Below are positions 3,450 to 63,930 of a stretch of DNA of 64,000 nucleotides, one piece after another. The stretch's first letter is position 1, and each line of letters starts with the position of its first letter. The notes under the pieces were generated by a model. It was given only the letters and a program-made list of their open reading frames with translations, was not told the origin of the DNA and did no database searches. A program made the position numbers and the translations under genes. The DNA is from Chitinivibrionales bacterium. GTDB lineage: Bacteria > Fibrobacterota > Chitinivibrionia > Chitinivibrionales > WJKA01. Location of the stretch: the NCBI GenBank assembly GCA_014728215.1, contig WJLZ01000117.1:62001-126000 (forward strand). Reading direction: 5' to 3'.

Positions 3450-3465
3450 TGCAAATTCCATGCCA
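3450..3465 (-). promoter_or_regulatory. Sigma-54 promoter for the PoxB-type gene
   Basis: Reads TGGCATGGAATTTGCA on the minus strand: GG-N10-GC with full -24 and -12 boxes, 85 bases before ATG 3365. It lies back to back with the site at 3484-3499, only 18 bases apart. Confidence 0.8.
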
Positions 3466-3483
3466 TGAGAGCCAAATAAAAGT

Positions 3484-3499
3484 TGGTATAGATATTGCG
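3484..3499 (+). promoter_or_regulatory. Sigma-54 promoter for the DAG kinase / HAD operon
   Basis: Reads TGGTATAGATATTGCG: GG-N10-GC, with the GG at 3485-3486 and the GC at 3497-3498, about 83 bases before the GTG start at 3582. Confidence 0.7.
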
Positions 3500-3581
3500 G
3501 GAGAGTAGCAATTGGATATTACTATTTTAAAAAAAATCTTCTCAATTTCAGAATTTCAGCAATGATTGCAAGGAGCGAGAT

Positions 3582-4553
3582 GTGCCGTGGAGAGTTAAAA
3601 AGTCAAAGGTTATGCTGATTATCAATCCACACTCGGGCCAGGAATCGCCGATGCCGCCGATGTTGAAAAGGATCACCGGTATGAAATCGGCCCAGATACC
3701 TCAGCGAAATCACCGTACCGATATTACCGAATATATTGTCGACGCGCTCAAAAAGGCAGGCATTAATCCTAATGTCGTGAAGACAAAAGGTCCATCCGAT
3801 ACCACTCAGAAAGCCAGGCAGTGTGCAGAGCAAGGGTATGAAACGGTGATTGCAGCAGGCGGTGATGGTACAGTCAATGCGGTAATTAACGGTCTGGCAA
3901 ATACGAAAACCGCTATCGGTGTGATCCCCCTGGGTACCGCAAATGTCTTTGCAATACAAATGGGTATCCCGGTGGATGTGCATGAGGCATGCAGAAACAT
4001 CGCTTCGGGCAAAAAAAACCGGATCGATCTGGGGCTGATTAACGATCGGTATTTCGGGTGTACGGCCGGGGTAGGATTCGATGCCTTTGTAATCCGGCAA
4101 ACCCGATCACGGCTGAAACGGAGTATCGGAACACTCGCCTATGTTTCGGTCGGTTTAAGTAACCTTTTGAAATATCCTTTTCAGCGAATCAAATTTACGG
4201 TGGATGACAACTCCGAATCGCGATACGCTTACATTATTATCATAGGCAACGGAAAGTATTATGGAGGAGAACTGATTGTGGCTCCCGAAGCCGATGTGCA
4301 GGACGGGAAACTCGATGTCTGCATTTTCCGTCACCGGGGGATCATGCATCTTCTCTCATATCTCTGGGGTTTGTGGCGGGGTACCTTATGGAGCTATACC
4401 GATGTCGATTGTATTAAGTGTAAAAGCCTTTCGGTATTTAAAAGGGGGCACCACCCGGTCCATGTGGATGGTGAGTATTACCGCAGAACACCGGTGCGCA
4501 TTACCGCTCAACCCGGAGCATTGTATGTTATCGGATCAAAGATAAATCAATAA
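3582..4553 (+). CDS. Diacylglycerol/lipid kinase family protein (DAGK catalytic domain)
   Basis: A 323-residue soluble lipid kinase of the DagK/YegS/BmrU family, which transfers phosphate from ATP to diacylglycerol, sphingoid or related lipids at the inner membrane face. Visible are the N-terminal nucleotide-fold start LIINPHSGQ, the hallmark GGDGT (93-97), PLGTANVFA (116-124), and the C-terminal beta-sandwich with YYGGELIVAPEADVQDG and HVDGE. The start is a GTG with AAGGAG six bases upstream. It is followed after 14 bases by a HAD phosphatase, so the two are probably co-transcribed from the sigma-54 site at 3484. The pairing suggests lipid phosphorylation and dephosphorylation, for example envelope lipid turnover. 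The substrate cannot be read from the sequence. Confidence 0.85.
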   Translation: MPWRVKKSKVMLIINPHSGQESPMPPMLKRITGMKSAQIPQRNHRTDITEYIVDALKKAGINPNVVKTKGPSDTTQKARQCAEQGYETVIAAGGDGTVNAVINGLANTKTAIGVIPLGTANVFAIQMGIPVDVHEACRNIASGKKNRIDLGLINDRYFGCTAGVGFDAFVIRQTRSRLKRSIGTLAYVSVGLSNLLKYPFQRIKFTVDDNSESRYAYIIIIGNGKYYGGELIVAPEADVQDGKLDVCIFRHRGIMHLLSYLWGLWRGTLWSYTDVDCIKCKSLSVFKRGHHPVHVDGEYYRRTPVRITAQPGALYVIGSKINQ

Positions 4554-4567
4554 ATGAGGTGGAATAT

Positions 4568-5230
4568 ATGGTTGAACTGAAAAAAGCTGCAATTTTTGAT
4601 CTTGATGGTACATTGATACGAAATGCAAGTGCAGAGGTGATCTTTTTTCGCCATTTGCTCTTTCACGGTGGTCTTTCACCCTTCAATCTTATCCAGATGC
4701 TGGCCGCTTTGTGGACTGCCCGTGGCAATTTTCATGCAATGACCAGAGAGAACAAGCGGTATCTGCGAAATAAAAATACCGACAAGCTTGAGACGGTGGC
4801 TCGTGAGTATTTCGAACCCCGTACCGACAACCTGGTATTCCCAGTGATGCATCGGGTGATTGAAGAGCATCGGGAAAAGGGCGACGTACTCCTTTTATTG
4901 AGTGGCACCCTTGATCTGATAGCCGCCTGTTTTCAACGGCATCTCAAGTTTGACGGGGCCAGGGCGGCAAAACTCGAACATAGAGATGGAAAATATACCG
5001 GTCGGCTCGAAGGTATTATTCCCTATGGATTCGGCAAGCTTGAAGCACTTCGTGAACTCATGCGCCATCACAATGTCGATGCAAATAAGACAACACTCTA
5101 TGCAAATATTTTTTCCGACCGCTATGTCATGAACGCAGTTGAACGTGCTGTTGCCGTCAATCCCGACCGCCGGCTTCGGGCCTATGCCGCGCGCCGGGGA
5201 TGGCAGGTTATTGATCCGGTTAAGAGGTGA
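4568..5230 (+). CDS. HAD-superfamily phosphatase, subfamily IB (SerB-like)
   Basis: A 220-residue HAD hydrolase. The nucleophile loop is FDLDGTL (D11, D13), followed by a helical cap, the serine motif LLLSGT, then GKLEAL and the C-terminal pattern NIFSDRYVMNAV followed by AVNPDRRLRAYAARRGW, typical of the small HAD-IB phosphatases that act on phosphoserine-like or lipid-linked phosphates. The acidic motif IV normally has DS.sD; here it is NIFSDR, with the first Asp replaced by Asn, so metal binding may be altered. ATG 4568 is preferred to GTG 4559 because GAGGTGG lies five bases upstream. Second gene of the DAG-kinase operon. Confidence 0.8.
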   Translation: MVELKKAAIFDLDGTLIRNASAEVIFFRHLLFHGGLSPFNLIQMLAALWTARGNFHAMTRENKRYLRNKNTDKLETVAREYFEPRTDNLVFPVMHRVIEEHREKGDVLLLLSGTLDLIAACFQRHLKFDGARAAKLEHRDGKYTGRLEGIIPYGFGKLEALRELMRHHNVDANKTTLYANIFSDRYVMNAVERAVAVNPDRRLRAYAARRGWQVIDPVKR

Positions 5231-5256
5231 GAGCCGAAGGTGGAACGTTAAGAGAA

Positions 5257-5300
5257 GAGGATAATGGATGAGGATAATGGTATCCAGCATCCGGCAACCA
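5257..5300. repeat. Dispersed intergenic repeat type B (GAGGATAATGGATGAGG)
   Basis: Core GAGGATAATGGATGAGGAT, then AATGG and GCATCCGG. A closely similar copy with the same GCATCCGG end lies at 31505-31541, and partial copies at 32695-32714 and, inverted, at 51715-51742. All are intergenic. Confidence 0.5.
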
Positions 5301-5336
5301 GTATCGAATACGTTTGATCTTCTGTGATTTTTTTAA

Positions 5337-5359
5337 TTTTGCGAAAGTTTTTCGCAAAA
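5337..5359. terminator. Perfect hairpin TTTTGCGAAA / TTTCGCAAAA between convergent genes
   Basis: A 10-bp perfect inverted repeat with a three-base loop between the end of the HAD gene and the end of the channel relic. There is no clean U-tract on either strand, so it may instead be a protein-binding site: the same TTTCGCAAA half-site recurs upstream of several sigma-54 promoters. Confidence 0.45.
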
Positions 5360-6283: not shown

Positions 6284-6299
6284 TGGCATAGGAATTGCT
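6284..6299 (+). promoter_or_regulatory. Sigma-54 promoter for the plus-strand glycan operon
   Basis: Reads TGGCATAGGAATTGCT, 71 bases before ATG 6370. Two TTTCGC(G/A)AA motifs 105-150 bases upstream sit where an enhancer-binding protein would bind. Confidence 0.8.
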
Positions 6300-16243: not shown

Positions 16244-17041
16244 TTATCGATCTATTGTATGTGCTGTTGCTGCTTCGAATTCTTCTTTGTCCCATGTTGT
16301 GATGCAGGAGGGATGTTCGGTATCGGGCTCACACACATAAATTTCCGGTGACGGATTACCGGTTATGCGCATGCCGCTGGAACGCAACATGGCTTCCATA
16401 CATGAAGCATTTGGTGCCCACCAGTTGGTAGGATCACCTGCGAACCGATGCTCGATAAAGGCCATCTTGGGCCAGCTGGCTTCGAGCATGTGATCGCGAT
16501 GGGTAATATCGGCATCAGTAATAATGACGTCTTTTGAGTTTCCCGGCATGGAAAGGGATTGAAAAATCATCAGTGACTTAACGATTCGGGAAACAATGTC
16601 GAGCCCAAGCAGCGGATATCGCAGGTGATATAACACCCCCATAAAAAGTACGATATCGAATTGAACGTTAAGATTTCTAAGATCGTAAACCTGCATTTTC
16701 CGGTAGAGTATCCGGTCAGACATATCAAAAAGGCCGGCAACCCACCGAGCCTGCTCAAGGTAATGATCATTTGAATCGATTCCGATAACCTGAGCGCCCC
16801 GTCGGGCAAGTATCAGTGAATAAAACCCGGCATTGCAGCCGATATCCAGCACTGTTTTTTCGGTGAGATCTTCGGGGATAATCGATTCTAACCGGGACCA
16901 CATGGTTTTGGGAAAATCTCCCAAAAAATGATCGGGTGCTGTCTGCATTCCATTGGGAAGATGAATATTGTGAAACCACGGTTTGAATTTTTCAATCCGC
17001 TCTTGTACCGTGCGCTTAATGTGCTGCTCCCCTTTTGTCAT
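16244..17041 (-). CDS. CmoB-related methyltransferase (TIGR04290-like)
   Basis: A 265-residue methyltransferase. The N-terminal FKPWFHNIHLPNGMQTAP followed by WSRLESIIPEDLTEKTVLDIGCNAGFYS resembles CmoB (tRNA uridine-modification) methyltransferases, but this shorter form with DPTNWWAPNASCMEAMLRS is one I associate with a conserved glycan cassette in soil bacteria (family TIGR04290, from memory). Motif I is DIGCNAGF, motif II GIDS. First gene of the minus-strand operon: AAAGGGAG precedes ATG 17041, and a perfect sigma-54 promoter lies 69 bases upstream. Probably modifies the same product as the neighbouring glycosyltransferases. Confidence 0.75.
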   Translation of the reverse strand: MTKGEQHIKRTVQERIEKFKPWFHNIHLPNGMQTAPDHFLGDFPKTMWSRLESIIPEDLTEKTVLDIGCNAGFYSLILARRGAQVIGIDSNDHYLEQARWVAGLFDMSDRILYRKMQVYDLRNLNVQFDIVLFMGVLYHLRYPLLGLDIVSRIVKSLMIFQSLSMPGNSKDVIITDADITHRDHMLEASWPKMAFIEHRFAGDPTNWWAPNASCMEAMLRSSGMRITGNPSPEIYVCEPDTEHPSCITTWDKEEFEAATAHTIDR

Positions 17042-17109: not shown

Positions 17110-17125
17110 CGCAAGTTTCGTGCCA
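17110..17125 (-). promoter_or_regulatory. Sigma-54 promoter for the methyltransferase/GT9 operon
   Basis: Reads TGGCACGAAACTTGCG on the minus strand, the textbook TGGCACG-N4-TTGC form. Divergent from the site at 17186, 60 bases apart. Confidence 0.85.
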
Positions 17126-17185: not shown

Positions 17186-17201
17186 TGGCATGACAATTGC
17201 G
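17186..17201 (+). promoter_or_regulatory. Sigma-54 promoter for the tandem glycosidase operon
   Basis: Reads TGGCATGACAATTGCG, 36 bases before ATG 17237. Confidence 0.8.
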
Positions 17202-23063: not shown

Positions 23064-23079
23064 CGGCATGTGGTTTGCT
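23064..23079 (+). promoter_or_regulatory. Sigma-54 promoter for the BrkB gene
   Basis: Reads CGGCATGTGGTTTGCT; GG-N10-GC with one -24 deviation (C for T), 144 bases before ATG 23223. Confidence 0.65.
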
Positions 23080-25115: not shown

Positions 25116-25775
25116 TTACTGTCGGCGTCCACGTTGTTGACCTTGTGAACGCTTCCACAACGGTGAACCGTCCTTTGCACGAAGCGGGACATTATTAGTA
25201 AATATCTCAATTTCCTGTGCAACCAGAATTTGTTCACCACGGACCCTTGCAGAAAATCCGATTACCTTGATAGAATCACCCTTTTCAAAGGAAATGTTAT
25301 TTTCGGTCAAAAAGGCTCCCGGCGCGGTATGAACCTTCACCATTCCGGTATCGGTATCGAGTGTCAGCACATAGATATTTCCGGTGCTGTCCACCATCTG
25401 AACGATACCTTTTACCGTGTCCGGTGTCTGGTTGTCAAAACCATTATACATACCGTTCCGGTCCTGCATACCATTCGTATCACGTTTCCATTCCTGATCT
25501 TCCTGATCGTAATATTCAATACCATTCGTGTCACGCTGCCATTGGTCTTTCCGATCATAATCCTTGGTACCATTCTTGTCTTTTTTCATCTGGTCTTTCT
25601 GATCATAATCTTGTATACCATTGGTATCGCGTTTCCATTCCTGGTTGTTTTTGTAACGCTTTTTTTCTGCATTTTCATTTTCGTGCTGACGGGCAAAACC
25701 GCCTGCCGTCAAAAGGAAAACGCCGGTACACAGCGCCGCAATACGAATATTTATTATAGAATTATTAGTTTTCAT
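25116..25775 (-). CDS. Secreted protein with four 16-residue repeats and an OB-like C-terminal domain
   Basis: A 219-residue protein with a signal peptide (IAALCTGVFLLTAGGFARQ). Residues about 44-105 hold four repeats of a unit like W-K-R-D-T-N-G-I-x-D-Y-D-Q-K-D-Q, for example EWKRDTNGIQDYDQKDQ, then a KKDKNGTKDYDRKDQ and a WQRDTNGIEYYDQEDQ version. The DxNG core resembles calcium-binding loops. Residues 115-200 (VKGIVQMVDSTGNIYVLTLD, GDSIKVIGFSARV, LVAQEIEI) look like a small beta-barrel of the OB/YdeI type. AAAGGAG precedes the ATG; a perfect sigma-54 site lies about 97 bases upstream. Probably periplasmic. Confidence 0.65.
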   Translation of the reverse strand: MKTNNSIINIRIAALCTGVFLLTAGGFARQHENENAEKKRYKNNQEWKRDTNGIQDYDQKDQMKKDKNGTKDYDRKDQWQRDTNGIEYYDQEDQEWKRDTNGMQDRNGMYNGFDNQTPDTVKGIVQMVDSTGNIYVLTLDTDTGMVKVHTAPGAFLTENNISFEKGDSIKVIGFSARVRGEQILVAQEIEIFTNNVPLRAKDGSPLWKRSQGQQRGRRQ

Positions 25776-25871: not shown

Positions 25872-25887
25872 CGCAAATAATATGCCA
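25872..25887 (-). promoter_or_regulatory. Sigma-54 promoter for the repeat protein
   Basis: Reads TGGCATATTATTTGCG on the minus strand. Confidence 0.8.
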
Positions 25888-25995: not shown

Positions 25996-26011
25996 TGGTA
26001 TGATTGTTGCT
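25996..26011 (+). promoter_or_regulatory. Sigma-54 promoter for the 26-28 kb membrane-protein genes
   Basis: Reads TGGTATGATTGTTGCT, 69 bases before ATG 26080. Confidence 0.7.
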
Positions 26012-29108: not shown

Positions 29109-29124
29109 AGCAATAAAAGTGCCA
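29109..29124 (-). promoter_or_regulatory. Sigma-54 promoter for the FKBP gene
   Basis: Reads TGGCACTTTTATTGCT on the minus strand, 84 bases before ATG 29025. Confidence 0.8.
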
Positions 29125-30219: not shown

Positions 30220-30235
30220 TGCAATATTCATGCCA
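30220..30235 (-). promoter_or_regulatory. Sigma-54 promoter for the SDR gene
   Basis: Reads TGGCATGAATATTGCA on the minus strand; 14 bases from the opposing site at 30250. Confidence 0.8.
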
Positions 30236-30249: not shown

Positions 30250-30265
30250 TGGCATTGCATTTGCA
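30250..30265 (+). promoter_or_regulatory. Sigma-54 promoter for the AI-2E-type permease
   Basis: Reads TGGCATTGCATTTGCA, 66 bases before ATG 30331. Confidence 0.8.
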
Positions 30266-31946: not shown

Positions 31947-31962
31947 CGCAAAATTAATGCCA
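31947..31962 (-). promoter_or_regulatory. Sigma-54 promoter for the small holin-like gene
   Basis: Reads TGGCATTAATTTTGCG on the minus strand, 45 bases before ATG 31902. Confidence 0.8.
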
Positions 31963-32103
31963 TCAAAAGAGAACTGATTGTTCCTGTGAATCGAAAAGAC
32001 AGCGGGATAATTGCCGATTCCCAATGATGCAAATTCGTTTTTACGAAAACGCGAAACGATAGGGGATAAGCGGGATACAATGAAGAGTATGTGGTGTCAG
32101 CAC

Positions 32104-32119
32104 AGGCATGTTTTTTGCA
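32104..32119 (+). promoter_or_regulatory. Sigma-54 promoter for the GSP17M-like gene
   Basis: Reads AGGCATGTTTTTTGCA, 59 bases before ATG 32178. A TACGAAAACGCGAAACG stretch lies about 60 bases upstream. Confidence 0.7.
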
Positions 32120-37497: not shown

Positions 37498-37614
37498 GGA
37501 GATACTCCTTTCAACAATTAAGCTGACCGCATAAAGAAACATTCAAATTTCATGCCGGCAGAGTGACTGCGCTAATTCTGAAAAAAACATTGCTCTGAGG
37601 GTTAAATCATTTAA

Positions 37615-37630
37615 TGGCATGTAGATTGCA
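37615..37630 (+). promoter_or_regulatory. Sigma-54 promoter for the AEP-like / EndoIV-like operon
   Basis: Reads TGGCATGTAGATTGCA, 170 bases before ATG 37800, a long leader. Confidence 0.75.
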
Positions 37631-40467: not shown

Positions 40468-42687
40468 ATGCCTGAACAAACCCGCCCTGAGACCGGAAGA
40501 CTTATTGCTGATGCTGTGGCGATCGATTCAAATAAATGGAAAAATCTTACTTCAGATGATTTTTCAAAGATGAGTAAGGAAGATCTCAAGGATATTGTTG
40601 CAGAAATGCAAATCTATCAACAGGGCCTGGAGATATTCAATCGGAATCTTGCCGGTTCGAACAATAAGCTTGCCCGTGAAAAAGAAGAACTTGAGCGTTC
40701 TCATCGCTTTTTTGGCAATTTTTCCGAAAAGACAACCGGCAATAGTATACAAAATGACCGTGAACAGTTGATCGAGCAGCTAGCCCGTGAAAAGGAGGCG
40801 CTTGCCGAATCGGAACAGCTATTCCGGATCATGGGGCATTCGATTGACTATGGTGTCTGGGCTGCCGATGCTTCGGGGAATATTACCCATGTTTGTCCCA
40901 AACTGACCGATATGCTGGGAAAATCATTTGAAGAGGTCCGCGGCTTTGGCTGGCTCGATACACTGGTTCCCGAACAGCGGGAGGACGTTGCCGATTTATG
41001 GATGCATTCGATACGGACCGGCGAGCCGTTCGAGCATGAGCATCATTTTGTGGCCAAAAATGGTGATATCCGTATTGTGCTGGGGCGTGGCATGCCGGTG
41101 AGAAATGAAAAGGGAACCGTTGTTTCCTGGGCGGGCATCAATCTCGATATTACCGACCCCAACCGAGTTGAAGAAGAGCTTATGCATACCAGTGCGGTTC
41201 TTAAGAGAGTCAATAAAAATCTACAGGAGAGCCGTGAATATCTCAATCGGGCCCAGGAAGTGGCCCATATCGGAAGCTGGCGGCTGGATATTCGAGAAGG
41301 CGAGGCGCTTTGCTCCGATGAAGCATGCCGGATTATTGGGATAGCCGATCAAAAAGAGATAACTAGTGAGATGTTTGCTTCCATAATTTATCCTGACGAC
41401 CGGGATAATGTTGAACAGATGCGGGCTGAACTCATGCAGGGGAACGCACGTGAATTCGATAACCGGATTGTGGTTGACGGAAAGGTTAAGTGGGTGCGGG
41501 TTCGTTCCGAGCCCGAATTCGACAACAATAATGTACTCACCGGTGGATTCGGGACCATCCAGGATATTACCGAACTGATGACTGCCCGGAAAAAAATTGA
41601 AGATCGCGAAAAGCTGTTCAGCCTGGTGCTCGAGAATTCCCGTGACGGCATTCACCTCTTCGATCTTGCTGCCGAAAAATTGGCATTCATGAGTCCGTCG
41701 CTCGAAAAACTTACCGGCTTTACACTCGATGAAATCGAGCAGTTACCCCTTGGAGAGATTGCTTTCCGATTGCATCCCGATGATATTGAGACTGTCAATA
41801 ATTACCTGAGCGAAATTATTGCAGGCAATGAACCGGATAAGCCCATGGAGTATCGCTGGCGTATTAAAAGCGGTGAGTACCGGTGGTTCAGTGACAGCAG
41901 AAAGGCGATCTGGGATCATGAGGGAAATGCAATCGCCCTCGTTGGTGTCAGCCGTGATATTACCGATCAGAAAATAATGGAAGAAAATCTCCGGCGCCAG
42001 GCAGGCGACCTTTCCGTCGTAAATGGTGAACTCGAGTCCTTTTCCTATTCTGTCTCCCACGACCTTCGCAATGTAGTCAATAACATCGCCGCGCTGATCG
42101 ATGTATTCGAGGTTGATAATCTGGATCGTATTAATGAAACCGGAAAAGCATGCCTGCTTCATATCAAGCAAAATGTTTCCCGGATGTCGGATACCATCTC
42201 CGATCTTCTGCAGCTTTCCCGTGTTTCAAAACAGGAGCTGGAAATTACCCAAACCAACTTGAGCCGTATTGCCGAAAGATTTATCGATGAATTGAAAGAA
42301 AGCAATTCCGGCCGCCGGGTCGGGGTAAATATCCATGATAACATGACTGCTATGGCCGATCGGGGGTTGATGCGACTCGTTATGGAAAATCTCATCAGAA
42401 ATGCATGGAAATATACCTCTAAATCTAAACAACCGGAAATCGAAATCGGCTATCGAAAAGAAGGACAGGAGAGGTACTTTTTTGTCAAAGACAATGGCGC
42501 AGGTTTCGATATGAAAGATGCGGAGCGGATTTTCGCTCCATTCCAGCGGGCCCATTCCAAAAAAGAGTATCCCGGTACTGGAATCGGTCTTTCAATTGTC
42601 CGCCGCGTTATCAAAAAACACAGTGGCGAAATATGGGTCGAATCGGAAACCGGAAAAGGGTCATGTTTTTATTTTACGCTGGGCTAG
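40468..42687 (+). CDS. Cytoplasmic multi-PAS sensor histidine kinase
   Basis: A 739-residue kinase without membrane segments. A short helical N-terminus (residues 30-110) is followed by three PAS/PAC units (about 118-235, 262-375 and 385-505, each ending in a GI-LDITD, GTIQDITE or GVSRDITD motif), a HisKA domain with the phospho-acceptor H531 in SYSVSHDLRN, and a HATPase domain (ENLIRNAWKYT, KDNGAGFDM, GTGIGLSIVRR). The last 216 residues align without a gap to the end of the next kinase. No response regulator is adjacent. GGGGGTAA lies before the ATG. It probably senses a soluble redox or ligand signal. Confidence 0.85.
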   Translation: MPEQTRPETGRLIADAVAIDSNKWKNLTSDDFSKMSKEDLKDIVAEMQIYQQGLEIFNRNLAGSNNKLAREKEELERSHRFFGNFSEKTTGNSIQNDREQLIEQLAREKEALAESEQLFRIMGHSIDYGVWAADASGNITHVCPKLTDMLGKSFEEVRGFGWLDTLVPEQREDVADLWMHSIRTGEPFEHEHHFVAKNGDIRIVLGRGMPVRNEKGTVVSWAGINLDITDPNRVEEELMHTSAVLKRVNKNLQESREYLNRAQEVAHIGSWRLDIREGEALCSDEACRIIGIADQKEITSEMFASIIYPDDRDNVEQMRAELMQGNAREFDNRIVVDGKVKWVRVRSEPEFDNNNVLTGGFGTIQDITELMTARKKIEDREKLFSLVLENSRDGIHLFDLAAEKLAFMSPSLEKLTGFTLDEIEQLPLGEIAFRLHPDDIETVNNYLSEIIAGNEPDKPMEYRWRIKSGEYRWFSDSRKAIWDHEGNAIALVGVSRDITDQKIMEENLRRQAGDLSVVNGELESFSYSVSHDLRNVVNNIAALIDVFEVDNLDRINETGKACLLHIKQNVSRMSDTISDLLQLSRVSKQELEITQTNLSRIAERFIDELKESNSGRRVGVNIHDNMTAMADRGLMRLVMENLIRNAWKYTSKSKQPEIEIGYRKEGQERYFFVKDNGAGFDMKDAERIFAPFQRAHSKKEYPGTGIGLSIVRRVIKKHSGEIWVESETGKGSCFYFTLG

Positions 42688-42947
42688 CTGGGAAGCAAGG
42701 GCGATGGTGAAGGGGGAGAGTGTTTGAGTTTAAAGGTGAAGGAAATCGAACTTCGGCAGTTAACCGATTAATATCTGCATTCACCCAGGGTTTTATGACC
42801 CAAACCTCTTCATAATAAATGCACCGGTGATTCGCAATGTATTATTTGTGTTTTAATATTATAGTATATTATTACTCTACATTTCACCGAATTCATAACA
42901 AAAAGTCCTTTTAAAAAGCATGTGTCAGGATGGTGGAGAAGGCAGCT

Positions 42948-48059
<5,112 letters not shown>

Positions 48060-48115: not shown

Positions 48116-48335
48116 AAATCAGCGTAAGTATATACTATGCTGAACGCTTCAGATTACATCCCTGTTCATCGGTCGTGATCTTTCCCGGCTTCGTTGAGTC
48201 CCGCATTATCGGGATGAATAATCTTGAATCTCTTTCTGCTGCTCATTCCTCACTTTCGATAATTTTCTCTGCAATTTTGCGAAAAAAGAAGTCCTATTCT
48301 CAAATAGCCACGGTAAACTGATTTTTCTTCTGCAT
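48116..48335. other. Intergenic control region, no gene seen
   Basis: Contains ATTTTGCGAAAAAAG at about 48274-48288, a TTTGCGAAA motif roughly 50-60 bases upstream of the sigma-54 site at 48336, at a distance suitable for an enhancer-binding protein. Confidence 0.4.
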
Positions 48336-48351
48336 TGGTATGGTTTTTGCA
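48336..48351 (+). promoter_or_regulatory. Sigma-54 promoter for the second FFYRP-family gene
   Basis: Reads TGGTATGGTTTTTGCA, 78 bases before ATG 48429. Confidence 0.75.
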
Positions 48352-48428: not shown

Positions 48429-49211
48429 ATGCTCAAAGAGGAACGTGAAGCGGTGAAAGAATCCTATGCAGGGATAGAGGATGGTGATGTATTCTTTTTT
48501 TACCGCCCCAAAACCGACAATCCCGAGAGCGCCCATGATATCCAGTCACTTCAACTGGTCCTTCATCCTCTGGCAAGTCGGAAGTTCCGGTTGCTGATAC
48601 TGGATACGGCGGTTATGCCCCAGAGGACTGAGACATTCAACGAAATTACCGGACGGGTCGACTGTGTTACCGATAAGGAGATGGTCATTCGCAATCGTCT
48701 GAAGGAACGGTTTGGCGAAACAAGGGGAATTGCAACGCTGGAAAAGCCCTATTCGCGAATCTGCGCCGAGGGGGTCTATTCCCTGGTACCTCATAATAAT
48801 CGGATGTATCTGGTATACCTTCTGGAATTGCCCGCGCTTCCCGGTAATGCCCAGCAGGTGTTGGGTATCCGGCGTGAAGATGAGTTTCTTGTTGGTGTTT
48901 ATAATCCGCTCTTCGGCAAGAGTGAAGAAGACCTTGAACGTGAGGAGGTCGGTGCGGAGGAACCCCGGTATCCCGATCAGCTCCAGAAGACCTTTAACCG
49001 GGGGCATATCACCTATGATGTCCATCCCGAATTACTCGACTATGAAAATGCACGGTTTGGTCTGTTCCGCAGGGGTTCCAAAGAAGCCCGCACGCATGCC
49101 GCCGATGTCGGCCCTATGTGGGAAGATTTCGATACCGCGGATATATTCAGAAAATTGGAAATGCGTAAAGAACGAATACCGATCGTATCGATTCTTGAGG
49201 ATTTACGGTAG
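48429..49211 (+). CDS. Uncharacterised conserved protein, FFYRPRV family, copy 2
   Basis: A 260-residue soluble paralog of the protein at 34959. Shared blocks: DGDVFFFYRPKTDNPESAHD, QSLQLVLHP, FRLLILDTAVMPQ, GRVDCVTDKE, CAEGVYSLVPHNNRMYLVYL, LELPALPGNAQQVLGIRRED. The C-terminal part differs and contains HPELLDYENARFGLFRRGSK and DIFRKLEMRKERIP, an equivalent of the FRHLKVDRKKRP end of copy 1. Again it has its own sigma-54 promoter. AAAGGAC precedes the ATG. Function unknown; the two conserved halves suggest a small-molecule or RNA-binding fold, which I cannot prove. Confidence 0.6.
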   Translation: MLKEEREAVKESYAGIEDGDVFFFYRPKTDNPESAHDIQSLQLVLHPLASRKFRLLILDTAVMPQRTETFNEITGRVDCVTDKEMVIRNRLKERFGETRGIATLEKPYSRICAEGVYSLVPHNNRMYLVYLLELPALPGNAQQVLGIRREDEFLVGVYNPLFGKSEEDLEREEVGAEEPRYPDQLQKTFNRGHITYDVHPELLDYENARFGLFRRGSKEARTHAADVGPMWEDFDTADIFRKLEMRKERIPIVSILEDLR

Positions 49212-52545: not shown

Positions 52546-52998
52546 TCAGCCCTTGACTTCGATTTTCTTTGCCTGGGGTTGGGGCCGGCTTGTTTTCTTC
52601 AGTGAAAGCTCAAGAACGCCGTTTTTAAATGTTGCGTTGATGCTTTCTTTATCGACATAGTCGGGAAGCGTAAAAGAACGGCTGAATGAGCCATAGGCCC
52701 GTTCGAGATGGCTGTAATACCCGCCTTCTTCTTCCTTTTTCGATTCTTCTTTTTTATCGCCGCTGATAGTGAGAACATCACCGGATATCGAAATGTCGAT
52801 GTTGTTTTTGTCAACACCAGGAATGTCGGCGCGAATGAGAAATTCATCCTTTTCTTCAACAATATCCATACTCGGCCACATTCTGCCGCTGATATCCCGG
52901 TTGGACATGCTGAAAAAAGGATCGTTAAAAAAGTCGTTGAGAAGAGTGCTTAATGAACTCATGGTCCGTTCGGGGCGGAAAGTAGGTAAAAAAGCCAT
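52546..52998 (-). CDS. Hsp20 / small heat shock protein
   Basis: A 150-residue chaperone: N-terminal arm (MAFLPTFRPERTMSSLSTLL, NDFFNDPFFSMSNRD), alpha-crystallin domain (RMWPSMDIVEEKDEFLIRAD, PGVDKNNIDISISGDVLTIS, YGSFSRSFTLPDYVDKESIN, ATFKNGVLELSLKK) and a basic end with KKTSRPQPQAKKIEVKG. The IxI-type C-terminal anchor is IEV. It prevents aggregation of unfolded proteins. AAAGGAGG precedes the ATG. A perfect sigma-54 site lies 137 bases upstream, where sigma-32 or a CIRCE element would be usual. Confidence 0.9.
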   Translation of the reverse strand: MAFLPTFRPERTMSSLSTLLNDFFNDPFFSMSNRDISGRMWPSMDIVEEKDEFLIRADIPGVDKNNIDISISGDVLTISGDKKEESKKEEEGGYYSHLERAYGSFSRSFTLPDYVDKESINATFKNGVLELSLKKTSRPQPQAKKIEVKG

Positions 52999-53134: not shown

Positions 53135-53150
53135 TGCAAAAGTTATGCCA
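53135..53150 (-). promoter_or_regulatory. Sigma-54 promoter for the Hsp20 gene
   Basis: Reads TGGCATAACTTTTGCA on the minus strand. Confidence 0.75.
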
Positions 53151-53329
53151 TTCGGGAAGATCGATCGGTGTTTTAGGTGCGTGAGAAAGCTCCACAACGG
53201 CCTCCTTTCGAATGGGATACTCCGGTATCCATTCGTAATTTCGAAAATCGCATTTGCATTTCCGGGAAATTTACGCTTTTGCCGTGCAGTCCATATTGTA
53301 TCAAAGCAGCATGTGAATGAATAGTATCC
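53151..53329. other. Intergenic control region, no gene seen
   Basis: Lies between two divergent sigma-54 sites. It contains ATTTCGAAAATCGCATTTGC near 53238-53257 but no coding frame. Confidence 0.35.
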
Positions 53330-53345
53330 CGGCATCGAATTTGCA
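53330..53345 (+). promoter_or_regulatory. Sigma-54 promoter for the CHAD gene
   Basis: Reads CGGCATCGAATTTGCA; correct spacing, one -24 deviation, 126 bases before ATG 53471. Confidence 0.65.
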
Positions 53346-53470: not shown

Positions 53471-54367
53471 ATGAGTTATCGATATGCAATAACCGAAACA
53501 ACAAAACAGAATCTCAGGCGCATTGCCGGAGAGCAGATCGACAAGGCAATGCGGGATCTGGTGTTTGAAAATATCAAAAACGCCGGCGGCATACATGAGG
53601 CCCGGAAAGAGTTTAAAAAAATACGGGCACTGCTTCGACTGGTGCGTCCTGCACTCGGCAACAATTATACCCGTCTCAATGGAATGTTCCGTGGGGCTGG
53701 ACGGGAATTTTCCGATTTCCGTGATGCGAAAGTAATGGCTGCAACCTGTAGCAACCTCGAAAACCACTTTAAGCCCCAGGCAAAGAAAGCGCTTTTTGCG
53801 GGGATCCAATCGCTTCTGGACAAACGGCGAGAGGATTTGATGAGCAAGCAGGGGCAGATTAAAAAGAAAGTTCAAAGAGTTCGGGACATGCTCAATGACT
53901 CGCAAAAAGTAATAGCTTCATGCAAAATGGGTGCTGAAGGATTCGATGCCGTGGGTGGAGGGCTGACACGAATCTACCGGCGGGGAAGAAAGGCTTTTGT
54001 CAATGCATACGATACTCCTTCCATGCAGAATTTTCATGACTGGCGAAAACGGGTCAAAGATTACTTGTATCACATGCGCCTTCTTCGCGATATGTGGCCG
54101 CCTGTTATAAAGGGATGCTGTTTTTCGCTCGAGGATTTGAGTCATATACTCGGTGATGAACACGATTTGAGTATACTGAGTGAATATATCGATGGTGTTT
54201 CAGAAGCGCATCTCAATTCTGAAGATCGGGCGGTGCTTAAAGATTTAATAACCCTGCGGCAATCGGAACTTCGCGCAAGTGCCCGGGCGCGGGGCAAACG
54301 CCTCTATGCAGAGAAGCCAAAAGCTTTCCGCACCCGTTTCGAGCAGTACTGGCTCGCATGGTCATGA
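53471..54367 (+). CDS. CHAD domain protein (polyphosphate-binding)
   Basis: A 298-residue helical protein with the conserved histidine/lysine/arginine pattern of CHAD: GIHEARKEFKKIRALLRLVR and GRKAFVNAYDTPSMQNFHDW with RKRVKDYLYHMRLL, the two repeats of the domain. The basic helices bind polyphosphate; CHAD proteins localise to polyphosphate granules. It begins right at the domain, without a CYTH or other partner domain. It fits the reserve and stress theme of the region next to the glucan phosphorylase. Sigma-54 site at 53330. Confidence 0.85.
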   Translation: MSYRYAITETTKQNLRRIAGEQIDKAMRDLVFENIKNAGGIHEARKEFKKIRALLRLVRPALGNNYTRLNGMFRGAGREFSDFRDAKVMAATCSNLENHFKPQAKKALFAGIQSLLDKRREDLMSKQGQIKKKVQRVRDMLNDSQKVIASCKMGAEGFDAVGGGLTRIYRRGRKAFVNAYDTPSMQNFHDWRKRVKDYLYHMRLLRDMWPPVIKGCCFSLEDLSHILGDEHDLSILSEYIDGVSEAHLNSEDRAVLKDLITLRQSELRASARARGKRLYAEKPKAFRTRFEQYWLAWS

Positions 54368-54394: not shown

Positions 54395-54410
54395 TGGCAT
54401 ACAATTTGCG
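54395..54410 (+). promoter_or_regulatory. Sigma-54 promoter for the glucan phosphorylase
   Basis: Reads TGGCATACAATTTGCG, 58 bases before ATG 54468. Confidence 0.85.
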
Positions 54411-54467: not shown

Positions 54468-56210
54468 ATGATGGAAGACGGTGTGTCGATAATGGAGAGA
54501 TTCTACGATATCGGAACAGCCTATTTCTCCATGGAATTTGCGCTGGAGAATGATATGCACACCTATGCCGGCGGGCTTGGAGTACTGGCTGCCGACATGA
54601 TGCGGGGATGTGCAGATCTGGAAATAGGCATTGCCGGCGTCTCTTTATTAGTGAAAAAGGGGTATTTTTTCCAGACAATCGATGCACAGGGAGTACAGCA
54701 CGAAAAAGAAGATCGCTGGAATCCCCACGAATTTTTGACACCTCTTAATGCAGAAGTCTCCGTCACCATAGAAGACCGTCAGGTACGCATAACTCCCTGG
54801 CTGTACGGGGTGAAGGGGGTTACGGGATTTGAAGTTCCGGTTATTTTTCTTGATACCGACAATGAAGCCAATTCACCCTTCGAACGCAGTTTGAGTTATT
54901 ACCTTTATAAGGATGACGACCGGTTCAGGTGTGCTCAGGAGATTGTTCTGGGTGTGGGCGGAGTACGGATGCTCGAGGCTCTCGGATTCGTCTCCGATCT
55001 CCGGTACCACATGAATGAGGGGCATTCGGCCTTTCTTGTTGCAGAACTCATGCGCAAATTTGGTGATGCTGCAGATCCTGCCCGGGAGGTGCGCAACCGG
55101 TGCATCTTTACCACCCATACGCCCGTTCCCGCCGGTCACGATAAGTTCAGTACAAAGATGGTTCAGAATATGTTTCCCTCCATGCCCGAAGAGATACAAA
55201 AAAGCATGGGGAGCGTCTGTAACATGACCGAACTGGCTCTCAACCATAGCGCATTTGTCAACGGAGTGGCCGGAAGTCATACCGAAACTACGAGCACCAT
55301 GTTTCCCGGTCATGATATCGAATCAATCACCAATGGCATTCATACCTCATACTGGGTGTGCCCGTCAATGGATGAACTTTTTGGCCGCTATGTTAAATCG
55401 TGGCGAAAAGATTTTTTTAATCTGCGGTATATCGCGGGGGTTTCATGCAAAGAAATCATGGAGGCCCACCGGGCGGCAAAGGAGCGGATGATTGCATGGC
55501 TTTTCGGGCATCAAAAAGTCAATCTGAATCCGGATGTTTTTACTATAGGATATGCCCGCCGGATAACACCCTATAAGCGTGCAGACATGCTTTTCTCCGA
55601 TATGCAGCGCCTGAAATCTATTGCACAACAGTATAGGGGGCTGCAGATACTCTATTCGGGTATAGCCCATCCGGCCGACCGGGAAGGGAAGCGGCAGATA
55701 GAGTATGTTCATGACGCCATGAAAGCTCTGAGGCCTCACGTGCGTACGTGCTATATCGAAGACTATGATTTGCAGATCGCCGGTATGATGGTATCCGGGT
55801 GCGACCTGTGGCTCAACACCCCCCGTCCGCCCCAGGAAGCTTCCGGTACCTCGGGAATGAAAGCCGCAGCCAACGGTGTGCCGCAACTCTCGGTTCTCGA
55901 CGGCTGGTGGAATGAAGGACATATCGAGAATATCACCGGATGGAGCATCGGTAAGCGCTATGATGAAAACGAAAGAGCATCACATGCAGAAGAATTGGAA
56001 GATATGTACGGTAAGCTGGAACATACGATCCTCCCACTCTATTACAACAATCCGGAACAATGGGCCCGGATTATGCGCAATTGTATCTCAATCAATGGTT
56101 CATTTTTCAATACGCACCGGATGGTTCGTCAATACGTCGTAAATGCCTACTTTACACACATCACCGAAAAGATAGAGACAACCGAGCCGGTGCTTCAGGA
56201 AATCAGGTAG
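54468..56210 (+). CDS. Alpha-glucan (glycogen) phosphorylase, short form
   Basis: A 580-residue GT35-type phosphorylase that releases glucose 1-phosphate from glycogen or maltodextrin with a pyridoxal phosphate cofactor. It has YFSMEFALENDMHTYAGGLG, YHMNEGHSAFLVAELMRKFG, TTHTPVPAGHDKF, NGIHTSYWVCPSMDELFGRY, TIGYARRITPYKRADML and TPRPPQEASGTSGMKAAANG then DGWWNEG. The PLP-lysine and phosphate-site motif EASGTSGMKAAANG is intact. The chain is shorter than enterobacterial phosphorylases (about 800) and matches the compact TIGR02094-like class. AAGGAG precedes the ATG. Sigma-54 control suggests reserve breakdown on starvation. Confidence 0.9.
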   Translation: MMEDGVSIMERFYDIGTAYFSMEFALENDMHTYAGGLGVLAADMMRGCADLEIGIAGVSLLVKKGYFFQTIDAQGVQHEKEDRWNPHEFLTPLNAEVSVTIEDRQVRITPWLYGVKGVTGFEVPVIFLDTDNEANSPFERSLSYYLYKDDDRFRCAQEIVLGVGGVRMLEALGFVSDLRYHMNEGHSAFLVAELMRKFGDAADPAREVRNRCIFTTHTPVPAGHDKFSTKMVQNMFPSMPEEIQKSMGSVCNMTELALNHSAFVNGVAGSHTETTSTMFPGHDIESITNGIHTSYWVCPSMDELFGRYVKSWRKDFFNLRYIAGVSCKEIMEAHRAAKERMIAWLFGHQKVNLNPDVFTIGYARRITPYKRADMLFSDMQRLKSIAQQYRGLQILYSGIAHPADREGKRQIEYVHDAMKALRPHVRTCYIEDYDLQIAGMMVSGCDLWLNTPRPPQEASGTSGMKAAANGVPQLSVLDGWWNEGHIENITGWSIGKRYDENERASHAEELEDMYGKLEHTILPLYYNNPEQWARIMRNCISINGSFFNTHRMVRQYVVNAYFTHITEKIETTEPVLQEIR

Positions 56211-60705: not shown

Positions 60706-61962
60706 TTATGAATGGTTAATACCTGTCTTCAGGACCATATCGATCTTTTGAAGAACATGGCAGATGCCCGCAGTATCCGATTGATTCAGCGTTCCCTCTT
60801 TACGGGCTTCCGATAAGGGCATGAGCATGTGCTCAAGATCATCAAGAGCGCGTTCGGTATGTAAGTCGTCACTCAGCGCATTTTCAAACTGCACGAGCAA
60901 TTCCCCGGCACTGTGGCTTGATTCAGCCGCTTCTTTATCGGGCTGCACATCCGTGGTGAACACGCGTGCATACTCGATCAGCCGGGCATGACGTTTTGCT
61001 GCGGCATCAAGCGCAGCATAGGTAAAATTGAGCTTTTTCCGATAATGTTGTGTTGCAAAGAAAAAACGGATCACCGCACCATCATACCCCTTTGATGCAA
61101 GGTCGCCGACATGGATTATGTTTCCCTTATTTTTAGACATCTTGTGGCCGTCAACCAGGAGATGTTCCCCATGAAGCCAATAGGGGGCAAGTTCTTTCCC
61201 CGAATAGGCTTCGGTGACTGCAATGGTATAGTCATGGTGACGGTAGAGGTTGTCGATGCCGCCGCAACTGATATCTATTTGTGTGCCGAGATGCTTGACT
61301 ATCATGGCGGGATCCTGAACATTCCATGCAGGACGCCCCTTGCCAAGCACTGTTTCCCATTGGGCCGGTTCATTATCACGCGCACCATGCCAGAGAATAA
61401 AATCTCCCAGATTCCATCGTTGACCCGGGTAGGTATCTTTACTGAAACGTTTTTTCCTAGAAGGCCATTTGCTCATATCCAGTCGGTACAGCCGTCCGAA
61501 GCCCTGGAAGGTGAGTGGATCGAAATAGATATCCGGCCCATAGGAGTAGGCATGTTTCTTTTCAAGTAACCCTTCAATAATCTCGGCCGCGGTATGAACG
61601 CTTGTTGAGGAACGGGGGATGAATGGAGGAAGATCGATTGAAAGAAAGCGGCAATCCTCAAAAAAACGCTCTTCTACCGGACGGGTAAGGTCGTCGACCG
61701 ATATCTGCTTCCGTCGTGCTTCACTGATGCTTTTATCTTCTATATCGGTGAAATTCACTACCCGTTCTACTTCAAATCCCAGGTGGCTGAGATAGCGATG
61801 AAGAATATCTTCATAAAAGAAGGTTCGATAGTTGCCAAGATGAGGGTGGCGGTATACCGAGGGGCCACAGGTAAACAGTTTCACATGGGGCGGTTGAAGT
61901 GGTCGGAACAGGTCCTTGTTCCGGCTCATGGTGTTATTCAACATCAGTGGAGGAGTATTCAT
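60706..61962 (-). CDS. Cysteinyl-tRNA synthetase-like protein lacking zinc ligands
   Basis: A 418-residue class I synthetase fold. It has LFTCGPSVYRHPHLGNYRT (HIGH-type motif as HLGN), VVNFTDIEDKSISEA, GGIDNLYRHHDY and KMSKNKGN. Of the four CysRS zinc ligands, by eye the first Cys (TCGPSV) and the His (RHHDY) remain, but the second Cys (WHIEC in true enzymes) is WNVQD and the Glu of HHENE is replaced in HHDYT. Only about 40-60 residues of the anticodon-binding end are left. It may activate another acid or serve outside translation, or be an impaired duplicate. ATG 61962 aligns with the normal start; the longer frame to 62043 runs into the previous gene. A normal cysS should exist elsewhere. 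Confidence 0.7.
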   Translation of the reverse strand: MNTPPLMLNNTMSRNKDLFRPLQPPHVKLFTCGPSVYRHPHLGNYRTFFYEDILHRYLSHLGFEVERVVNFTDIEDKSISEARRKQISVDDLTRPVEERFFEDCRFLSIDLPPFIPRSSTSVHTAAEIIEGLLEKKHAYSYGPDIYFDPLTFQGFGRLYRLDMSKWPSRKKRFSKDTYPGQRWNLGDFILWHGARDNEPAQWETVLGKGRPAWNVQDPAMIVKHLGTQIDISCGGIDNLYRHHDYTIAVTEAYSGKELAPYWLHGEHLLVDGHKMSKNKGNIIHVGDLASKGYDGAVIRFFFATQHYRKKLNFTYAALDAAAKRHARLIEYARVFTTDVQPDKEAAESSHSAGELLVQFENALSDDLHTERALDDLEHMLMPLSEARKEGTLNQSDTAGICHVLQKIDMVLKTGINHS

Positions 61963-62006
61963 GCTGTAGGTACCTTGGTGAAGGTATTGACTATGGTGTG
62001 CAACAT

Positions 62007-62678
62007 TCAGCTTCCCGCCACCGATTGATGCATCGATGCCCATTCTTTCAGTAAATCTTTGACCTCTTCATCGGTTGTGGGAGTGAAATCATCATACCAG
62101 GCTCCCACTGCTGAAAAGGCCCGGGGTGTTTGTACGCATATGATATCATCGGCGTCTTCGGCCAGTTTATTGCGCACGCTTGGAGAGGCGACTGGAACCG
62201 CAACTGTTATGGCGGAGGGGTTTTGCTGTCGCAAAGTTTTCACCGCCGCCATCATGCTCGCTCCTGTCGCAAGGCCGTCATCCACCAGTATAACCGGGCG
62301 ACCTTCGGCACTGACCGGAACCTTCCCGCCCTCTCGGTACATCGCCTCACGTTTGCGGACTTCTTCCTGTTCGCGGCGGGTTTCCATTTCGATGGCATCT
62401 TCTGGTATGTGAAGATATTCCACAACATCCTCATTGATCACCCGCGTATCTCCTCCGGCAATTGCGCCCATGGCAAGCTCTTCATGACCCGGCGTGTCAA
62501 GTTTACGGACAACAAATATATCCAGATCGGCATCCAGCGCTTTTGCCACTTCAAAGGCCACAGGAACTCCTCCGCGGGGCAATCCAAGAACAAGCAGATT
62601 CTCTTTTGATTTATATTCTTTCAGATGGTCGGCCAGTATTCTGCCGGCTTCACGGCGATTCCCGAATATTCGTTCCAT
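62007..62678 (-). CDS. Phosphoribosyltransferase domain protein
   Basis: A 223-residue protein of the type I PRTase family: LLVLGLPRGGVPVAFEVAKA, the acidic PRPP-binding loop VILVDDGLATGASMMAAVKT and a lid region with AMGAIAGGDTRVINEDVVEY. The family binds PRPP and often an unknown base; the stand-alone bacterial form with DLDIFVVRKLDTPGHEELAM is uncharacterised, sometimes next to stress proteins. ATG 62678 is preferred over 62684 on spacing from GGGAGG. First gene of the CysRS-like/kinase operon, pointing to a nucleotide-linked process. Confidence 0.8.
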   Translation of the reverse strand: MERIFGNRREAGRILADHLKEYKSKENLLVLGLPRGGVPVAFEVAKALDADLDIFVVRKLDTPGHEELAMGAIAGGDTRVINEDVVEYLHIPEDAIEMETRREQEEVRKREAMYREGGKVPVSAEGRPVILVDDGLATGASMMAAVKTLRQQNPSAITVAVPVASPSVRNKLAEDADDIICVQTPRAFSAVGAWYDDFTPTTDEEVKDLLKEWASMHQSVAGS

Positions 62679-62900
62679 CACCATCCTCCCTTAAGTAAAT
62701 CGTGGTGTCTGGTTGTCGGTGTTACCATCTTTTCATCACGGCGCCACAGCAGCTCGTTAAAGATCACATTATTTAATCGCTTGTACCGGTAGATAAAAAC
62801 AATAGTTGACTTCACCTCAACGCCTCGCTTTGAGCATGTTCCTCCCCGCCGGCAAAGCCGGGAGGAGAGGGAAGAGAAGAGGAGAAGTGGGTGACAAATC

Positions 62901-62933
62901 AAAAAGGCATAATTAAAAAAATTATGCCTTTTT
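62901..62933. terminator. Bidirectional rho-independent terminator overlapping a stop codon
   Basis: AAAAAGGCATAATT (62901-62914) and AATTATGCCTTTTT (62920-62933) form a perfect 14-bp stem with a five-base loop; T-runs follow on the plus strand and, through the A-run, on the minus strand too. The TAA of the Hsp20-like gene (62922-62924) and its last codons lie inside the stem. Confidence 0.85.
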
Positions 62934-63401
62934 TGTCGGAACAGCGACTCCTACATAATCGTTGCGCATATAGGCCTGTGCATTATCCCAGTCAAGATCA
63001 CCTTTTAATTCGACACTATTGGAAAATTCAAGTTCGAATTCCTGGCTTCCAAGGTCTTTCCAATTCTTTTTGACCGATCGTGTCCCTTCGATAATGAGCA
63101 TATTACCGGCATGCGTCACATTCACATTTTTTTTCTGTACACCGGGAACTTTTCCGGCTACCCATACATACCCGTTTTTCCGGCCTGCTGCAAAAGTTGT
63201 CCCACTTTCCTTATCAGTTTTGCCGGGAAGGTTTTTTGCAACCATTTCGGGTATGGAAGACCATGAAAAACGCTTTTGGGCAACATCTGTTTTTTTGAAT
63301 ACCTTGCTGTGACCCGCGCGTGACCAGGGTAACGGAACTCTGGTATGTCGTTTTTTTCTTTTCAGTTGACTTTTTCTCATTCGTGGATTAACAAAATTCA
63401 T
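62922..63401 (-). CDS. Hsp20-like (alpha-crystallin domain) divergent protein
   Basis: A 159-residue protein: a strongly basic N-terminal arm (RMRKSQLKRKKRHTRVP), then a domain resembling small heat-shock proteins (GYVWVAGKVPGVQKKNVNVT, AGNMLIIEGTRS, QEFELEFSNSVELKGDLDWD then NAQAYMRNDYVGVAVP). The V-x-G-x-VPGV and LIIEG motifs are those of the alpha-crystallin fold, whereas the basic arm and lack of an IxI tail are unusual. The start overlaps the upstream DUF2267 stop (ATGA). It ends in a terminator. Probably a stress chaperone or a structural variant. Confidence 0.65.
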   Translation of the reverse strand: MNFVNPRMRKSQLKRKKRHTRVPLPWSRAGHSKVFKKTDVAQKRFSWSSIPEMVAKNLPGKTDKESGTTFAAGRKNGYVWVAGKVPGVQKKNVNVTHAGNMLIIEGTRSVKKNWKDLGSQEFELEFSNSVELKGDLDWDNAQAYMRNDYVGVAVPTKKA

Positions 63402-63847
63402 GCTGCATGCTCCTTATCATACTTTTCCCATAATTCTTTTAGTTCGCCGGGAAGCAACTGTTCAATTTCCTGTGCTTCACCGGATGAAATCTCGTGTTTA
63501 AGTACATTTAAAACCACGCCGGTGACTTTTTCGGGCTCGAATGCAGGATCACCGGCAAAATCACGTTCGATACGCTTGAGAAATTCTTCTTTTGACCGGT
63601 ATTTGATCGGAACCTCTGCCGGACGCCAGCTCTCGTAATAGATGCCACGGATCAGCATAGGAAGCTGAGCGCTCAAATGCGCGCCTTCATCGATGGTCAG
63701 GCGGTCTCGCAGAGCATGAAGTACGGCACGTAACGCCTTGTAAGACTTTTGGCGACTGTCCCATCCAAGCTCCTTACCGATCTCTTTGAGCCAGACCTCG
63801 CTTTTCTGAACAGTGGTATCAAATGCTTCCAATCCTGTCATTGCCAT
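63398..63847 (-). CDS. DUF2267 family protein, copy 2
   Basis: A 149-residue helical protein: MTGLEAFDTTVQKSEVWLKE, SYKALRAVLHALRDRLTIDE, GAHLSAQLPMLIRGIYYESW, and EEFLKRIERDFAGDP with LLPGELKELWEKY at the end. This is the standard DUF2267 layout, longer than the member at 50237. AAAGGAGG precedes the ATG. A perfect sigma-54 promoter lies 68 bases upstream, and the Hsp20-like gene follows with a four-base overlap. Confidence 0.85.
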   Translation of the reverse strand: MAMTGLEAFDTTVQKSEVWLKEIGKELGWDSRQKSYKALRAVLHALRDRLTIDEGAHLSAQLPMLIRGIYYESWRPAEVPIKYRSKEEFLKRIERDFAGDPAFEPEKVTGVVLNVLKHEISSGEAQEIEQLLPGELKELWEKYDKEHAA

Positions 63848-63914
63848 ACTGGCCTCCTTTCATAGGTGATTTTCAGGCAGGTGTTACAGTTTTCAATTCA
63901 TTGCACTAAAAAGA

Positions 63915-63930
63915 AGCAAGTTGTGTGCCA
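63915..63930 (-). promoter_or_regulatory. Sigma-54 promoter for the DUF2267/Hsp20-like operon
   Basis: Reads TGGCACACAACTTGCT on the minus strand, a full consensus match. Confidence 0.85.

Follow-up and report, generated by a model that had tools for sequence, protein, structure and literature searches.

We analysed a 64,000-nucleotide stretch of DNA (the window; bases 62001-126000 of the 187,730-base contig WJLZ01000117.1, here C117) from a Chitinivibrionales bacterium for promoters of the alternative sigma factor sigma-54 (RpoN). The analysis places the window within a sigma-54-rich region, in which a core set of promoters, mostly marked by a pair of enhancer-like palindromes, probably forms a regulon under one bacterial enhancer-binding protein (bEBP), driving a stress and dormancy programme. 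The genome around the window comprises 5.0 Mb in 229 contigs, of which C191, C194, C208, C212, C214, C221 and C226 (~2.5-2.9 kb each) consist of N throughout. One protein, GyrB, suggests that the host is probably an uncultured member of the Fibrobacterota, order Chitinivibrionales: two contig-edge fragments are 73-78% identical to Chitinivibrionales RBin_299, with near-full-length matches elsewhere at ~63% or less. The 1709-aa hybrid kinase of the window did not by itself place the host. Contig sequence was read for ~2.0 Mb of the genome, in stretches picked partly for having sigma-54 matches. Since this choice was partly match-guided, the whole-genome count of a strict pattern, TGGCAY-N5-TTGC, provides the fairer test of density.

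Sigma-54 promoters in the window

The sequence-only reading of the window had recognized twenty-four sigma-54 sites by the rule GG-N10-GC. The bare form of this rule matches 504 times in the window, carries no information and was rejected, but the full -24/-12 element is real. A position matrix built from outside sites alone returned 24 window sites at 12 bits or more, equal to the earlier count, against 3.9 expected from first-order shuffles. At thresholds of 13 and 14 bits, 23 and 20 sites were found against 2.3 and 1.25 expected, so the comparison with shuffled sequence that had been suggested came out in favour of the promoters. The logo contains both sigma-54 elements separated by a free spacer and, immediately after them, a stretch rich in T/A; it lacks dimer symmetry. 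The strict pattern occurs 14 times in the window and 142 times genome-wide, compared to 7 times for a reversed control pattern, and the genome holds about twice the strict sites of any relative searched. Taken together, these data strongly support real, RpoN-type promoters in the window and in the dense contigs described below.

By our gene calls, 16 of the 19 window sites at 15 bits or more are intergenic. The other three are 30250+, 30235- and 58660-. The first two form a divergent pair whose downstream starts were probably called too early; AI-2E homologues align from about residue 58, which places the true AI-2E start probably downstream of the 30250..30264 site. The site at 58660- is probably a chance match.

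Regional concentration of sigma-54 sites

The promoters are concentrated in one part of the genome. Five contigs (C117, C185, C143, C42 and C186; 391 kb), referred to as dense, contain 136 sites at the density cut-off of 15 bits or more (34.8 per 100 kb), compared to 6.1 per 100 kb in the remaining 1.6 Mb read. Most of these sites (126 of 136) are intergenic, and 109 point at a start codon within 250 bp, mostly at 40-150 bp. Among 229 predicted transcription units on the dense contigs, 115 have a sigma-54 site within 330 bp. The whole-genome strict count gives the same picture: C117 makes up 3.8% of the genome yet carries 37 of the 142 strict sites (26%, P=6e-21), and C117, C185 and C143 together make up 7.5% and carry half of them (P=1e-42). 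In 481 kb taken from five long contigs (C133, C86, C141, C215 and C68), there are 3 strict sites where 13.7 are expected. Equal density genome-wide or inside genes, the outcome named beforehand as fatal to the promoter network, was thus not what the scan returned, and a uniform distribution is ruled out by the dense and sparse contig counts. C117 and C42 overlap end to end by 141 bases. The sigma-54-rich region therefore spans at least 0.2 Mb, and similar contigs total ~0.39 Mb.

A paired palindrome upstream of a core set of promoters

To find elements shared between the promoters, expectation maximization was run upstream of 89 dense promoters with the sigma-54 elements masked. This returned the palindrome tTTttCAaattTGaaAAa, with a log-likelihood of 156-167 compared to 39-48 in shuffles, and superseded an earlier exact-dyad and k-mer search that had given only the hints TTTGCAAA and CCGGCA. 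The enhancer-like element, TTNNCAAATTTGNNAA, lies mostly 40-130 bp upstream of -24. At least one copy is present at 52 of the 126 dense promoters (5.5 in shuffles), and an in-phase pair at 41 (0.0 in shuffles); at sigma-54 sites of other contigs a copy is found in 6 of 74 cases. When the matrix was trained without C117 and applied at 10 bits or more, the palindrome was recovered upstream of 22 of 55 C117 promoters, compared to 3.5% in shuffles and 10% at the sigma-54 sites of other contigs, with a position peak 60-120 bp upstream of -24.

The copies keep a characteristic distance. In the histogram of copy-to-copy spacing, the sole standout values are 21 bp (26 cases) and 22 bp (7 cases), which recur on C117 with a matrix trained elsewhere (11 and 5 cases, respectively); no 21-bp peak is seen in other contigs. 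Such an arrangement is what established knowledge of bEBPs leads one to expect of tandem enhancers two helical turns apart. Thus, pairs at 21-22 bp fit the tandem enhancers of one sigma-54 activator, which argues for one core regulon. If a single bEBP is expected to leave a single motif, 52 of the 126 dense promoters conform and the rest do not, and no second shared motif rose above shuffles in promoters without the palindrome.

In the window, pairs are found at the Hsp20 promoter and the divergent CHAD promoter, at the holin-like promoter and the divergent promoter of 32178, and at 48429. The epimerase 6346 and BrkB 23202 promoters have unpaired copies. The earlier proposal of one regulon for the whole window consequently survives for the core set, whereas no clear copy is seen at the remaining window promoters, which could respond to different activators. 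The promoters and enhancer-like elements of the window are as follows (window coordinates, strand in brackets).

3451..3465 (-): sigma-54 promoter, 22.6 bits, before TPP enzyme 1672-3270
3484..3498 (+): weaker sigma-54 site, 13.0 bits, before DAG-kinase-like gene 3582-4553
Centres 6179 and 6218: enhancer-like copies 39 bp apart, upstream of the epimerase 6346 promoter
6284..6298 (+): sigma-54 promoter, 17.8 bits, before epimerase 6346 of the glycan cassette
17111..17125 (-): sigma-54 site, 13.2 bits, before methyltransferase 16244-17041
17186..17200 (+): sigma-54 promoter, 19.3 bits, before the gene ending at 18169
Centres 22861 and 22947: enhancer-like copies upstream of the BrkB-family 23202 promoter
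23064..23078 (+): sigma-54 promoter, 15.2 bits, before BrkB-family gene 23202
25873..25887 (-): sigma-54 promoter, 20.5 bits, before 25116-25775
25996..26010 (+): sigma-54 promoter, 17.9 bits, before 26080-26463 and the holin-X cluster
29110..29124 (-): sigma-54 promoter, 19.9 bits, before FKBP 28297-29025
30221..30235 (-): sigma-54 promoter, 23.5 bits, before SDR gene 29297-30145
30250..30264 (+): sigma-54 promoter, 21.3 bits, before the AI-2E transporter ending at 31494
31948..31962 (-): sigma-54 promoter, 16.3 bits, before PF04020 holin-like gene 31567-31902
32015..32058: tandem enhancer pair, centres 32026 and 32048 (22 bp), between two divergent sigma-54 promoters
32104..32118 (+): sigma-54 promoter, 20.2 bits, before 32178-32699
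37543..37557 (-): sigma-54 promoter, 16.7 bits, before DJ-1/PfpI gene 36946-37542
37615..37629 (+): sigma-54 promoter, 22.4 bits, before the 37800-40132 operon
48244..48286: tandem enhancer pair, centres 48255 and 48276 (21 bp), first copy weak
48336..48350 (+): sigma-54 promoter, 22.0 bits, before 48429-49211
53136..53150 (-): sigma-54 promoter, 19.7 bits, before Hsp20 52546-52998
53229..53271: tandem enhancer pair, centres 53240 and 53261 (21 bp), between the Hsp20 and CHAD promoters
53330..53344 (+): sigma-54 site, 14.6 bits, before CHAD gene 53471-54367
54395..54409 (+): sigma-54 promoter, 20.9 bits, before carbohydrate phosphorylase 54468-56210
63916..63930 (-): sigma-54 promoter, 19.5 bits, before the DUF2267 / Hsp20-like pair 62922-63847

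Genes behind the promoters

Target annotation covers part of the genes behind the promoters, and stress- and dormancy-type content was found among those. Genes with both a sigma-54 promoter and the enhancer encode Hsp20, a Balon-family protein, a divergent S30AE (RaiA-type)-cold-shock fusion, DegP, an M48 peptidase, UPF0182, GAPDH, a GH65 enzyme, a TolC-type protein, a P-type ATPase, an ATPase operon led by a PRC-barrel gene, and receiver-only response regulators. A sigma-54 promoter without a clear enhancer precedes the genes for DnaK, FtsH, PolX, glycogen debranching and isoamylase-type enzymes, a six-BON-domain protein, OmpA, FKBP, the AI-2E transporter and carbohydrate phosphorylase. The larger share of the predicted content concerns stress, proteostasis, the hibernation of ribosomes, carbon reserves and the envelope, and exopolysaccharide, which the earlier proposal had grouped with stress tolerance, is a minor theme. 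Among the window genes named in that proposal, Hsp20, FKBP, phosphorylase, two holin-like proteins and the glycan cassette were confirmed. The "AEP-like operon" was not, as 37800-39242 matched nothing in Pfam or among PDB sequences.

The assignment to the Balon family is based on a match to PDB 8rd8 (E=1.3e-4 over residues 20-255), the Psychrobacter Balon entry named by Helena-Bueno et al. (2024, PMC10901736), and on the Balon neighbourhoods published there, which contain RaiA-type, Hsp20, DnaK, MarC and OsmY (BON)-type genes. The role in hibernation is a prediction. The protein also matches PF18849 (baeRF) with E=2e-31. The fusion gene (C117:134606-135199), which diverges from the Balon-family gene and joins a RaiA/HPF-type S30AE domain to a cold-shock domain, is preceded by a strong sigma-54 promoter of its own (23.1 bits) together with the shared pair of enhancers, and a 68% identical copy occupies the same position in G001, a relative of the same genus. 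The PRC-barrel operon (C185:73075 onward) comprises seven genes, with the PRC-barrel protein first and an ATP synthase alpha/beta-type subunit among them, and is preceded by a sigma-54 promoter and the shared enhancer pair.

Conservation in relatives

We then scored relatives for a sigma-54 site of 13 bits or more upstream of the corresponding genes. The Balon-family gene has such a site in 11 of 13 genomes of the order; the opposite strand has one in 7 of 13, as expected from divergent promoters. For the best Hsp20 gene, the site is present in 21 of 30 genomes, extending into other families of the phylum, compared to 1 of 30 on the opposite strand. Counts are low for AI-2E (4 of 16), UPF0182 (3 of 10) and the PF04020 holin-like gene (1 of 15), the last of which was rejected as a conserved regulon member. 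This indicates that a sigma-54 site is not a general property of genes. The enhancer pair is kept at the Balon gene in G001 and in G021, which belongs to another family. Local clusters of strict sites also occur in G001 and in G002, a member of the same family (C361, 4 within 6 kb; C23, 6 within 13 kb). At three Hsp20 loci, L303 (G007), L304 (G025) and L325 (G022), an imperfect palindrome of the type TGTTTC-N5-GAAACA lies upstream of the sigma-54 promoters and is possibly the enhancer of a different activator.

RpoN, candidate activators and a proposed mechanism

The genome has one intact rpoN, a 470-aa open frame with the RpoN box ARRTVAKYRE, and ~21 bEBPs. The sigma-54 holoenzyme is unable to open promoters alone and needs an ATP-driven activator. 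No activator gene was found in the window or elsewhere on the 188-kb C117, and the activators lie on other contigs. Their absence from the window, which the sequence-only reading had found striking, is accordingly confirmed but unremarkable, because sigma-54 activators act in trans. The best candidate, judged by its neighbourhood and its own sigma-54 promoter, would be the protein encoded at C185:101730-103052, an NtrC-type response regulator with receiver, AAA+ and Fis-type helix-turn-helix (Fis-HTH) domains. In its vicinity lie the genes for a histidine kinase and for two receiver-only regulators, the latter two behind sigma-54 promoters with paired enhancers. A second response-regulator bEBP is encoded at C185:37282-38694. 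Among the nine non-ECF-type sigma-70 proteins scanned, out of ten proteins of that size, none scored above the NCBIfam cutoff for RpoS, RpoH or SigB.

In the mechanism that we propose, RpoN-RNA polymerase would wait in closed complexes at about half of the region's transcription units. A core of ~40-50 promoters carries TTNNCAAATTTGNNAA palindromes, mostly in pairs 21-22 bp apart, and one dimeric Fis-HTH bEBP would bind these pairs, oligomerize and open the promoters. The units would remain silent until one signal and then be fired together. The programme switched on would include chaperones, proteases, hibernation by the Balon-family and RaiA-like proteins, carbon-reserve enzymes, ion and ATPase systems, and envelope repair. 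The starting points of this mechanism, read from the DNA itself, are the promoters, their regional density, the enhancer pairs with their spacing, and the conservation at Balon and Hsp20; we infer the bEBP binding of the pairs, the identity of the activator, the inducing signal and the stress/dormancy role.

Two window loci may be added. A PAS histidine kinase (40468-42687) is followed by a 1709-aa CheB-CheR-multi-PAS histidine kinase (42930-48059); the matrix scan found a sigma-54 site right upstream of neither, and both could be sensors for the regulon. At 60706-62043, adjoining a histidine kinase, lies the gene for a 445-aa protein with a class I cysteinyl-tRNA-synthetase-type catalytic domain, possibly a paralogue with another function.

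Alternative explanations

The observations could also arise if the dense contigs formed a replicon of their own (megaplasmid or chromid), or came from a foreign element sorted into this genome bin, with its own promoter style. No tRNA genes were found on C117, C143, C185 or C211, the strict-site count is about double that of any relative, and the estimated contamination is 3.4%, all of which would suit such an origin. However, tetranucleotide profiles of dense and sparse contigs agree (r 0.98-0.99), which speaks against a foreign contaminant, and GC3 likewise matches the rest of the genome. C211 has both a dense and an empty stretch (8 sites in the first 40 kb, none in the last 31 kb), and the Balon promoter and local site clusters are present in G001 and G002, in G001 together with the enhancer pair. 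We consider this origin unlikely; a separate replicon would in any case not contradict the regulon model. It is highly improbable that the -24/-12-like motif is the site of another DNA-binding protein or a repeat element rather than a promoter, given that the logo matches the exact -24/-12 pattern with its free spacer, that the sites face gene starts at promoter distance, and that the genome has an intact RpoN.

A further explanation accepts the sigma-54 promoters as genuine but divides them among numerous small regulons, each under its own activator; the clustering would then only reflect how accessory, environment-facing genes accumulated in one region. The number of activators in the genome and the 74 of 126 dense promoters without the shared enhancer are in line with it, as are the relatives' Hsp20 promoters that lack this enhancer. 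One palindrome with a fixed 21-22 bp pairing at 41 promoters, nearly absent from sites elsewhere, and the lack of a second motif in the remaining promoters argue the other way, and we regard this explanation as quite unlikely. Several of the same points, and others, weigh against the core paired-enhancer regulon that we favour. The 74 promoters without a clear copy include those of DnaK and FtsH, and only 2 of 20 Hsp20 genes of relatives carry the shared enhancer. The candidate activator has no enhancer copy within 200 bp of its own promoter, and the stress role could be shared by several sigma-70 factors of group 2. The join between contigs is seen for C117-C42 only, and contiguity of these two with C185 and C143 is conjectural. 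Finally, the enhancer matrix was trained on the dense contigs, a circularity that cross-validation answers for C117.

Relation to known systems and significance

The general stress regulons of RpoS, SigB and EcfG contain genes for small heat shock proteins, DegP, BON proteins, glycogen metabolism and PRC-barrel proteins, and the gene content described here overlaps with them. They differ in the type of promoter: because sigma-54 depends on an activator driven by ATP, little leak would be expected. Tentatively, and short of a firm proposal, we suggest that in Chitinivibrionales sigma-54 and one tandem-enhancer activator may have replaced RpoS/SigB/EcfG as the general stress and hibernation master, its targets gathered in one chromosomal domain with sigma-54 promoters at the head of about half of its transcription units.

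Francke et al. (2011, PMC3162934) proposed that sigma-54 controls the exterior of the bacterial cell. The promoters before exopolysaccharide, envelope and transport genes agree with this, whereas the prominence of stress, proteostasis and hibernation, the coverage of half of the region's units and the one shared tandem enhancer differ from it. For Planctomycetota and Bacteroidota, Carrera-Reyna et al. (2025, PMC12316311) predicted chaperone regulons of sigma-54, in which such promoters precede genes for small heat shock proteins, DnaK and proteases, as they do here. Fibrobacterota does not appear in the text of their paper, and the present case adds a defined enhancer pair, hibernation genes and clustering. 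CbrB of Pseudomonas putida is reported to be a single bEBP that directly controls at least 61 genes (PMC6296734). It resembles the present case in placing many genes under one bEBP, although our activator is a candidate only, and differs in serving the carbon limitation response, with no regional concentration noted in the abstract. As in the published Balon/RaiA neighbourhoods, the Balon-family gene here keeps company with RaiA-type, Hsp20, DnaK, MarC and OsmY (BON)-type genes; the difference is the tie to sigma-54 promoters and a shared enhancer, the word "promoter" being absent from that paper (PMC10901736). In the open-licence literature searched, we found no report of such a regulon in Fibrobacterota, of sigma-54 control of Balon, or of a region in which half of the units use sigma-54. 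What is new is thus the occurrence in Fibrobacterota, along with the use of a single paired enhancer, the inclusion of hibernation genes and the clustering.

Sigma-54 regulons are usually regarded as scattered and functionally mixed. The regulon predicted here, defined by sequence, would comprise ~50 promoters with a readable tandem enhancer and bring chaperones and ribosome hibernation together in one part of the genome. In a phylum with few cultured members, it would link hibernation of the Balon/RaiA type to one particular class of promoter. It also allows a test of whether a low-leak sigma factor, gated by an activator, can run a general stress or dormancy response.

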